Shown in pieces: positions 32,574 to 35,279 of a stretch of DNA of 64,000 bases. Position 1 is the stretch's first letter; every line of letters begins with the position of its first letter. Origin of the DNA: Iocasia fonsfrigidae. Lineage in GTDB: Bacteria; Bacillota; Halanaerobiia; Halanaerobiales; DTU029. The translations under genes were made by a program, and so were the position numbers. The notes under the pieces were generated by a model. That model was given only the letters and a program-made list of their open reading frames with translations. It searched no databases and was not told where the DNA came from. Location: positions 3,018,137-3,082,136 of the forward strand of contig NZ_CP046640.1 of the NCBI RefSeq assembly GCF_017751145.1, in the 5' to 3' direction.

Positions 32574-32590
32574 AAGCAAGAACTGTGCCA
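32574..32590 (-). promoter_or_regulatory. Sigma-54 (-24/-12) promoter
   Basis: Minus strand TGGCACAGTTCTTGCTT: TGGCAC, five bases, TTGCT, with GG and GC exactly 12 apart. This matches the sigma-54 consensus at all key positions. Transcription would start near 32564 and run into the M20 peptidase and NhaC-like genes. The adjacent gene at 33198-35279 encodes a sigma-54 activator, which strengthens the call. Confidence 0.88.
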
Positions 32591-32949
32591 GAATCTGAAA
32601 AAACAGGAATTTTCAATTAAAAAAATTAACAAAACACCTATTTTCCTGCCATTTACCTTACATTAACTCAGAAACTAACCCTGGACTATTATTTTGAATT
32701 ACCAAAAAATAGCTATTCAGCATTTAGGGAATAATAATGATTTAAAATTGTATCACTAATTAATCCTCGCCGGTAAAACCCTCTCTTTCCCCTTAAACAG
32801 GCAGAGGTTTTTATTTTTAATTCATAATTGTATCGATTGATTCAAAAACAAATCACCGTTGCCTCATTATTACTTTATACAGAAGAATAAATAAAATCGC
32901 TTTCACAATTTATAGTTATTTAGTAACAATCCTAAATCATCTTAAACCA

Positions 32950-33133
32950 GACAAATATACTTACTGAACGACTCTAGAAATTGTCTGGGGGCATGGAACT
33001 TGGCCTCGATGGCCTAATACTGACTCGACCATGCGTTATAAAAAGAAGAGTCAGTGAACCGGAAGACAATTTCTCAACAGCAAGCGAAGGCAGGACGCCA
33101 AAGCGCATGACAAGGGAAGTAAATATATTTGTC
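32950..33133. other. Structured, pseudoknot-capable intergenic element
   Basis: Outer arms GACAAATATACTTAC (32950-32964) and GTAAATATATTTGTC (33119-33133); a nested perfect 11-bp stem AGAAATTGTCT (32976-32986) / AGACAATTTCT (33064-33074). Inside it, GCATGG (32991-32996) pairs with CCATGC (33029-33034) and ACTGACTC (33019-33026) with GAGTCAGT (33048-33055). These last two are interleaved, hence a potential pseudoknot. A small GGCC-TCGAT-GGCC hairpin lies at 33002-33014. It is non-coding and more GC-rich than its surroundings. Could be a structured RNA or a non-autonomous mobile element. Confidence 0.65.
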
Positions 33134-33172
33134 GGTCGTTAGAATTATCTACAATCCAAAAATATTTTAAAA

Positions 33173-33199
33173 AAAAAGCCTGCTTTAAGCAGGCTTTTT
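33173..33199 (-). terminator. Terminator of the sigma-54 activator gene
   Basis: AAGCCTGC / GCAGGCTT stem with a tight AT loop and flanking A/T runs, overlapping the stop codon at 33198. Confidence 0.78.
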
Positions 33200-35279
33200 A
33201 AATCATATACTTCTTCCTTTTGCGCACAACTGTAGGCTGGCTCACTTCTAAAACTCTGGCCACTTCATAAGTACTACTGCATTTCTCAAAAGCCATCTTT
33301 AAGATGTCTTTCTCAACCTTTGATACTGCTTTTTTAAGGGGAATAATATCAGTAACCTTAATATCTGTCTCTTTATTCTCCATCTCTTTTATCTTCTTGG
33401 GCAGAATCCTGGGCTCAATTATATCCTGACTATACATAACCACAAACCTTTCAATCAGGTTTTTCAATTCGCGGACATTACCAGGCCACTTATAATATTC
33501 CAGGTATTCAATAGTCTCCAGGGCTATCTTCTTATTTATATTATATTTCTTGTTAAACTGATTTAAGAAATTATAACTTAAAGGGGCAATATCTGCTTTC
33601 CTTTCCCTTAGAGGAGGGATATGAATCGGCACCACATTAAGCCTATAATATAAATCCTCCCTGAAAGTCCCTTCCTGCAGCATTATATCCAAATCCCGGT
33701 TAGTAGCAGCCAGAACACGGACATCAATCTTAATACTCTCTGTTCCCCCTACCCGCATTATCTCTTCTTCCTGTAAAACACGTAATAATTTCACCTGTAA
33801 ATTCAGCGGTAATTCCCCAACCTCATCTAAGAGTATTGTCCCTTTATCAGCCAGTTCAAAAATCCCTGGTTTCCCATCAGACTTGGCACCAGTAAAAGCA
33901 CCTTTTTCATAACCGAAAAGCTCAGCCTCCAATAAATTATCTGGGATCGCTCCACAATTTACCTTCATAAAAGAATTCTTACTGCGCTTACTGGACTTAT
34001 GAATTGTTCTGGCTATAATTTCTTTACCCACACCAGATTCACCAGTAATTAAAACTGTAGAGTCTACCCCCCCAATCTGTAAGGCCAGGTCAATAATCTT
34101 CTCCATTTTATCACTTTTAACTACGACATCATCCAGTTCCAGCTGCTGTAGACGCAGTTTTTCCAGTTCAGAGTAGTATTTTTTGCTTAACTGTTTTGTT
34201 TTTTCTAATTCCTCTTTTAGGTGATTCAATTCCTTTACATCACGGGCTGTAGTTACTACCCTAACTATCTTACCTTCTTCATTAAACACAGGATTACCTG
34301 TACTTAAAATCCTCTGTCCACTCTTAAGTTCATGCATTACTGTCACTGACTCACATTTCTCTAAAACCTGAAAGGTAACTGATTCAGAAAATATTCCTTC
34401 AGCGACCAGTTCCCTCATATTTCTCCCTAAAACATCTTCACTCTTTATTCCTGTTATTTTTTCATAACTACTATTAATTCTGATGGTGTCTCCCTTACCA
34501 TTAGTAATATATAAACCATCAGAGACCGATTCAATTATAGCATCTAATTCCTTATTTAAATTCTTGACTATGTTTAATTCCTCTGAAATTTTTTCCAGAT
34601 CAGAAATATCCTGAAAAATGGCCATAGCCCCTTTTAATTCGCCATTTTTATAGATTAAACTCCGGTTAGTTAAAACAGTAACATCACCGATATTTAGCTT
34701 TTTACCTGACTCCTCTCTTTCATCTTCCAGAACACCTATCAAACCTGTATTAGGGAGGATATCTATCAGTGGTTTACCCAATACTTCTGTTGATTTACAC
34801 CCCATGATTTTTTCAGCAGCTGCATTAAAGGTAATAATTAAACCATCTTGATTAACAGCAATAATGCCATTATGGGATGAATCAAGGATAGTAGTTAGCT
34901 CCCCTACAACCTCCTGTGACTGTAGATAAAATCCCCTGACCAGGTCTGTTCTAGTTAATATCCCGACTAGTTCATTATCACTATTAACCACCGGCAGTCT
35001 ACCGACATTAGTCTCCAGTGCCTTTTCAATAGGCTCATCTTCATTTATCTTAATCAGGTCCCAGGTCATTAGTTCTTCTACTAAAGTACCTCTATCTAAA
35101 TTATCAATTATTACCTCCATCAAATGGCTTTTAGTAAATATACCCAGTAGTTTTCCCTGATTATCCACAACAGGTGCCCCATCGATTTTATTATTATGAA
35201 ATACCTGGGCCGCCCTGTTAATTGTATCCTGCCTGAATAAAGTAATGGGTTTCCTGCTCATTATATCAAATACCCTCAT
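33198..35279 (-). CDS. Sigma-54-dependent activator with CBS, PAS, AAA+ and HTH domains
   Basis: 693 residues. Tandem CBS domains (1-118), two PAS domains (about 125-235 and 245-355), a central AAA+ domain (about 385-610) with Walker A GESGVGKEI, the sigma-54 contact motif GAFTGA, Walker B ILLDEVGELP and R-fingers, then a Fis-type helix-turn-helix at the extreme C-terminus (TYEVARVLEVSQPTVVRKRK). CBS pairs sense adenosine nucleotides and PAS domains small ligands or redox state. Next to a sigma-54 promoter and the lysine cluster, it is the likely activator of lysine use. Confidence 0.95.
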   Translation of the reverse strand: MRVFDIMSRKPITLFRQDTINRAAQVFHNNKIDGAPVVDNQGKLLGIFTKSHLMEVIIDNLDRGTLVEELMTWDLIKINEDEPIEKALETNVGRLPVVNSDNELVGILTRTDLVRGFYLQSQEVVGELTTILDSSHNGIIAVNQDGLIITFNAAAEKIMGCKSTEVLGKPLIDILPNTGLIGVLEDEREESGKKLNIGDVTVLTNRSLIYKNGELKGAMAIFQDISDLEKISEELNIVKNLNKELDAIIESVSDGLYITNGKGDTIRINSSYEKITGIKSEDVLGRNMRELVAEGIFSESVTFQVLEKCESVTVMHELKSGQRILSTGNPVFNEEGKIVRVVTTARDVKELNHLKEELEKTKQLSKKYYSELEKLRLQQLELDDVVVKSDKMEKIIDLALQIGGVDSTVLITGESGVGKEIIARTIHKSSKRSKNSFMKVNCGAIPDNLLEAELFGYEKGAFTGAKSDGKPGIFELADKGTILLDEVGELPLNLQVKLLRVLQEEEIMRVGGTESIKIDVRVLAATNRDLDIMLQEGTFREDLYYRLNVVPIHIPPLRERKADIAPLSYNFLNQFNKKYNINKKIALETIEYLEYYKWPGNVRELKNLIERFVVMYSQDIIEPRILPKKIKEMENKETDIKVTDIIPLKKAVSKVEKDILKMAFEKCSSTYEVARVLEVSQPTVVRKRKKYMI

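Follow-up and report, generated by a model that had tools for sequence, protein, structure and literature searches.

A probable MITE-like mobile repeat with a conserved three-way-junction core and a second structured repeat nested in it in Iocasia fonsfrigidae

Introduction

Small dispersed repeats (SDRs) of cyanobacteria, reportedly described by Elhai and colleagues in 2008, are very small modules precisely nested within other repeats, structural-RNA loci included (PMC4390886). Bacterial MITEs, such as ERIC, Correia/NEMIS, RPE and YPAL, are non-coding, intergenic sequences of about 130-500 bp with stable secondary structure, terminal inverted repeats and target duplications, and RPE is also present inside RNA genes (PMC2229807). 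REP, BIME and REPIN sequences, linked to RAYT, form many dispersed, structured intergenic copies with mosaics and inverted pairs (PMC2817692, PMC3116915), and the small RNAs CsrB, CsrC and RsmZ present CAGGA(U/C/A)G in hairpin tips, with several GGA per 130 nt (PMC7652899).

Here, we describe an element that resembles these systems, identified within a window of 64,000 nucleotides of the I. fonsfrigidae genome (NZ_CP046640.1, positions 3,018,137 to 3,082,136, forward strand). It is very probably a non-autonomous, MITE-like mobile repeat with a conserved, strand-specific three-way-junction (3WJ) core, and the tip of its hairpin H1 hosts another small structured repeat, M1, which is independent of it. 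Among the traits shared with MITEs, terminal inverted repeats and target duplications were shown for 3WJ units of another genome (G325); unlike MITEs, the 3WJ repeat has conserved unpaired junction and tip sequences, strong phylum-wide compensatory covariation and units with different ends, and is strictly replication-polar in its own genome (G000). Compared with SDRs, M1 is longer (about 60 bp), covaries strongly and is located in hairpin loops. The inverted pairs of REP-type repeats have their counterpart here in subfamily A with subfamily B, but the 3WJ junction fold is much larger, is accompanied by 9-bp duplications in relatives and has no link to a RAYT gene. In contrast to CsrB, CsrC and RsmZ, the repeat is mobile and multi-copy, has no known promoter or terminator and occurs outside Gammaproteobacteria, and its binding of CsrA is putative. 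The 3WJ repeat together with M1 is a variant among known small mobile repeats, and not a local riboswitch.

Results

The window copy is composed of an outer stem, two hairpins and three junction segments (Table 1), in the order P1-(R)CGACTCTA-H1-YGACAG-H2-CGACAAG-P1'. The outer arms, to which an earlier note on this DNA had given 15 bases, measure 16 nt and are 94% complementary, and the perfect 11-bp inner stem that it reported was found as such. Its 8-bp helix also exists, with 8-9 bp, but belongs to the inserted M1 and not to the host, while the second arm H2, the division into host and insert and the multiplicity of copies were missing from that account. A pseudoknot of 6 bp had been proposed as well (GCATGG, 32991-32996, with CCATGC, 33029-33034), and can pair in this copy; one half lies in the host's H1 tip and the other in the M1 loop, all six pairs can form in 10 of the 17 insert-bearing copies with zero compensation, and it was rejected as a conserved feature. 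The stems go far beyond chance, with folding z-scores of -3.6 (+ strand, window copy) and -6.2 (a copy without insert), plus very strong covariation.

Table 1. Features of the window copy and its surroundings (window positions).
Feature	Coordinates	Strand	Evidence or remark
3WJ repeat, subfamily A, M1 inserted	32947..33137	+	R2 cmsearch 116 bits, E 2.9e-26; dispersed copies
Outer stem P1, 5' arm	32950..32965	+	all 15 P1 pairs with two-sided changes in alignment A3
Outer stem P1, 3' arm	33118..33133	+	partner of 32950..32965; A3 covariation
Junction segment J1 (ACGACTCTA)	32968..32976	+	overlaps first H1 base; kept across all three subfamilies (A, B, C) and in other genera
Hairpin H1, 5' arm	32976..32986	+	compensated GTCT/AGAC to ATCC/GGAT between copies
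Hairpin H1, 3' arm	33064..33074	+	perfect 11-bp stem with 32976-32986
H1 tip GCATGGAA with A(N)GGA	32991..32998	+	M1 insertion point immediately 3'; 5' half of the proposed pseudoknot
M1, ~60-bp independent structured repeat in H1 tip	32999..33057	+	R1 cmsearch 81 bits, E 2.9e-19
M1 hairpin S1, GGCC-TCGAT-GGCC (4-bp)	33002..33014	+	CG, AU, GC, UA pair types at one position
M1 hairpin S2, TACTGACTC (33018-33026) / GAGTCAGTG (33048-33056), loop GACCATGCGTTATAAAAAGAA	33018..33056	+	two-sided changes, most pairs
Junction segment J2 (CAACAG; consensus YGACAG)	33075..33080	+	conservation
Hairpin H2, tip GGC-AGGAC-GCC at 33089-33099	33083..33105	+	covariation; A(N)GGA in tips
Junction segment J3 (TGACAAG; consensus CGACAAG)	33108..33114	+	conservation
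CBS/PAS sigma-54 activator gene	33198..35279	-	
Perfect -24/-12 sigma-54 promoter TGGCACAGTTCTTGCT	32575..32590	-	upstream of M20 peptidase / Na+/H+ antiporter / CoA-transferase cluster
Perfect terminator-like hairpin AAAAGCCTGCTTTAAGCAGGCTTTT	33174..33200		between activator gene and element; source of most weak Rfam matches

The genomic context described previously, with the element placed between a sigma-54 activator gene and the promoter of its presumed targets, is confirmed by the gene and promoter positions. In the own genome (G000; 3.93 Mb, one contig), 87 blast matches to the element fell at about 45 places, and the fold model gave 56 matches, plus insert-bearing copies counted apart, so that the 3WJ repeat is present in at least 70, about 75, copies. 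These come with or without the internal M1 (~60 bp), and with or without M2 (~50 bp) near the second hairpin, M2 being nested within M1 in one copy. Subfamilies B and C have the same architecture as A with different stems, and B is frequently inverted beside an A copy. Fold model R2 detected the repeat in 14 of 61 related genomes, belonging to 12 genera, and also in four genomes from other families of the phylum. Within the plasmid collection, the terminator region accounted for the matches, apart from short stretches alike by chance, and in viral contigs the 3WJ search returned one chance pattern match without the fold, and the M1 search no match. No description of the family in Halanaerobiales was found in the open-licence literature. 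Besides M1, two other structured inserts of small size, namely M2 (~50 bp) and M3 (~54 bp), were observed in the same hairpins at L058 (copy 906076) and L114 (778786), and M2-like sequence also in another genus (g12, L082).

The earlier note had proposed an Rfam scan and a covariation analysis of homologues as checks. Against 4227 Rfam families, at gathering and permissive thresholds, no family matched the element, and there were only weak small-RNA matches, driven by the neighbouring terminator. Covariation was evident in alignment A2 (A, B and C copies lacking inserts), with two-sided, compensatory changes in 22 of 30 pairs, and more so in alignment A3, composed of 41 copies from other genomes fitted to the fold model, where 97.9% of the cells were paired and 29 of the 30 pairs had two-sided changes. 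The covariation score of A3 was 0.900, versus 0.252 for shuffled and 0.10-0.14 for slid alignments; fitting to the model biases A3 in favour of structure, although fitting alone would by no means produce so wide a margin. Since G-U cells (about 52) far outnumber A-C cells (8) in the pair tally, the + strand of the window is the folding strand. Between genera the stems are completely turned over, with junctions and tips retained, and the core is also retained in old copies with wholly diverged flanks, including the window copy.

M1 is a second, independent small structured repeat, inserted into the H1 tip of the host. In an alignment of 32 units, 10 of 13 pairs were compensated, and model R1 found it in 36 of 61 related genomes, with as many as 43 copies per genome. 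A majority of the 3WJ copies lack M1, which is present or absent at an identical junction, stands alone in other genomes, and in G046 (L153) is inserted in a 3WJ copy on the strand opposite to it. An empty and a filled site (CCTCG^CAAGTT versus CCTCG[TGACGG..GGTG]CAAGTT) differ by the insert, without duplication. By contexts and gene names read from the sequence, tandem M1 units would lie just 5' of the acpP ribosome-binding site in several species (L070, L071, L076), a site common to different genera, and M1 would also be located in 16S rRNA leaders, beside tRNA genes on the opposite strand (L155-L157), and at varying positions within the RNA-coding 3' part of IS605-type tnpB genes (L073, L074, L083, L086, L093).

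Evidence of mobility was obtained from unit ends. In G325, the fold is contained in units of 192-195 bp with terminal inverted repeats GACTAT..ATAGTC, and 9-bp direct repeats abut the unit ends at seven sites, where 61 of 63 positions match versus 23-36 at other offsets. One G325 unit lies inside a multi-copy IS, predicted from its transposase sequence to be ISAs1-like, and has since been multiplied together with it. Terminal inverted repeats were also identified in the 400-560-bp units of G048, a genome with about 50 copies (ATTGATATATTG..CAATATATCAAT), and in family C of G000 (TATATAAGT..ACTTATATA). The 9-bp duplications and terminal inverted repeats in relatives thus make the units MITE-like, and, as in MITEs, target-site duplication is of fixed length (G325), terminal inverted repeats are present (G325, G048 and G000 family C) and dispersal takes place without a transposase gene. 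Nevertheless, the same core occurs in units with different ends (G325, G048 and the G000 C family), which is unusual and counts against one MITE family.

For subfamily A of G000, the window copy included, exact ends and target duplication were not definable, with flanks that decay gradually and some copies sharing terminal hairpins. No autonomous parent with matching ends was seen among the extracted loci, and the protein search of named genomes for an orthologous empty site gave distant homologues only. About ten coreless copies exist in G000; they were rejected as empty target sites, because the arms are near-palindromic direct repeats and simple deletion suffices. As a separate observation, a hairpin unit, AACAAARTGGCTTCGCCAYCCAGACTTAA, often bounds subfamily A copies of G000 (e.g., L207, L237-L264); it is common to tandem copies, attachment-site-like, and nearly all of its 36 occurrences lie beside A copies.

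In G000, all 72 counted A and C copies follow the replichores, the folded strand being - from dnaA (base 1) to about 2.10 Mb and + beyond. Most genes next to the copies are antisense to this strand. Three copies whose neighbours on both sides run in the direction of the element still obey the replichore, so that replication, not transcription, sets the orientation; copies between genes of opposite direction led us to reject gene orientation as what causes the strand bias. In G048 the bias is absent or weak (p = 0.05). Strict replication bias is not usual in DDE transposition, and fork-coupled insertion would be the simplest idea for the cause of the polarity in G000.

Discussion

The earlier note left a choice between a structured RNA and the cargo of a non-autonomous mobile element, and both halves were partly right, since structure and strand-specificity are real and are carried by non-autonomous repeats. 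It also implied local control of the sigma-54 targets. A riboswitch or leader that acts in cis on the sigma-54-controlled genes through a pseudoknotted aptamer would agree with the location of the element, which has the activator gene on one side and a perfect sigma-54 promoter on the other; yet the same element occupies at least 70 other, unrelated places, and has mixed orientation relative to neighbouring genes in other genomes. Moreover, its position is upstream of that promoter, its strand is antisense to the genes under regulation, it has no Rfam match, and the pseudoknot helix is not conserved (10/17), making this explanation extremely improbable; a locus-specific riboswitch function is ruled out by the dispersed copies. 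Quite unlikely, too, is that the copies are unselected remnants, whose fold is merely inherited from recently active copies with nothing maintaining it. Identical recent copies in some genomes would suit such remnants, but complete stem turnover between genera despite constant junctions and tips, and an intact core in old copies whose flanks have wholly diverged, argue against them.

If the element were a REP-like unit that an IS200-like (RAYT) transposase moves in single-stranded form, this would account for both the strand-specific fold and the replication polarity. G000 encodes a 252-aa Y1 protein, the replication-polar orientation resembles single-strand transposition, and IS608 and ISDra2 target the lagging-strand template (PMC6006769). 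However, 9-bp target duplications and terminal inverted repeats are at odds with HUH chemistry, and the duplications also depart from the IS200/IS605 type, which makes no target-site duplication. Furthermore, G041 has the fold without a Y1 match, Y1 is common among genomes lacking the fold, and the folded strand is on the leading-strand template, which would be opposite to the placement expected of the mobile strand under such a mechanism. Nor is the RAYT gene flanked by the repeat, the nearest copy being about 2.3 kb from the only intact Y1 gene of G000. RAYT/IS200 was rejected as the mover on the target duplications and the distribution, and we consider this route unlikely. In the MITE-like reading that we prefer, a DDE-type transposase would mobilise the unit in trans via its ends, and the fold would be maintained since it may be required in a transcript or in single-stranded DNA. 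The single intact RAYT-like Y1 gene (252 aa) is located at G000:C1 3694995-3695324 (L127 1108-1866, -).

Regarding what the fold is for, a tentative proposal compatible with the MITE explanation is that the core is a mobile CsrA/RsmA-binding RNA, whose transcripts, with A(N)GGA tips and internal-loop GGA, would bind CsrA dimers as decoys or local sites. Multiple A(N)GGA in hairpin loops, as in CsrB/RsmZ-type RNAs, were found in the core: among the 41 copies from other genomes, 39 carry this motif in the H1 tip and 36 in the H2 tip, and in A2 each tip carries it in 34 of 37. The sequence CAGGA(U/C/A)G, known as the CsrB repeat (PMC7652899), is present in about 30 of 41 H2 tips. No trinucleotide is more enriched than GGA (112 versus 74.3 expected, z 6.2), with TCC unenriched, and almost all frequent GGA columns are unpaired. 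In addition, csrA was detected in 13 of 14 fold-bearing genomes versus 30 of 47 without the fold (Fisher p = 0.033, ignoring relatedness), and G000 carries two csrA genes. On the other hand, the antisense placement of the folded strand in G000 fits poorly, and loop conservation is partly selected for by the inclusion of loops in the search model. Just four GGA are present in the window copy, with two located in hairpin tips, and the csrA proximity in G026 and G030 is one shared event, 7-9 kb distant. Likewise, FliW is the protein known to antagonise CsrA in Firmicutes, and FliW-bearing phyla such as this one are thought to rely on it, not on RNA sponges (PMC4682653). Thus, a CsrA-binding role is putative, a lead and not a result; doubtful, in turn, is the wider reading, in which 3WJ is a mobile RNA domain that binds CsrA as a CsrB-like sponge, and in which MITEs have spread it within the class to which this genome belongs and to some other families of the phylum. 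If true, no earlier RNA antagonist of CsrA would be known outside Gammaproteobacteria, nor any earlier one on a transposable element.

Covariation of such strength is usually taken to prove a functional RNA gene or riboswitch, but here it is owned by a mobile repeat and another nested in it; consequently, surveys of structured RNAs must allow for selfish structured elements. The 3WJ family is a test case for the spread of a regulatory RNA (CsrA) domain by a transposable element. Its replication polarity, all-or-none in one genome but not so in others, suggests that a step of its amplification is linked to replication. Among minor observations, a glycine riboswitch aptamer (Rfam RF00504, 63 bits) was identified at L097 1982-2073 (-), and the csrA genes at G000:C1 507083 and 2635410 are each about 4-7 kb from a 3WJ copy, which may be chance at such copy density.
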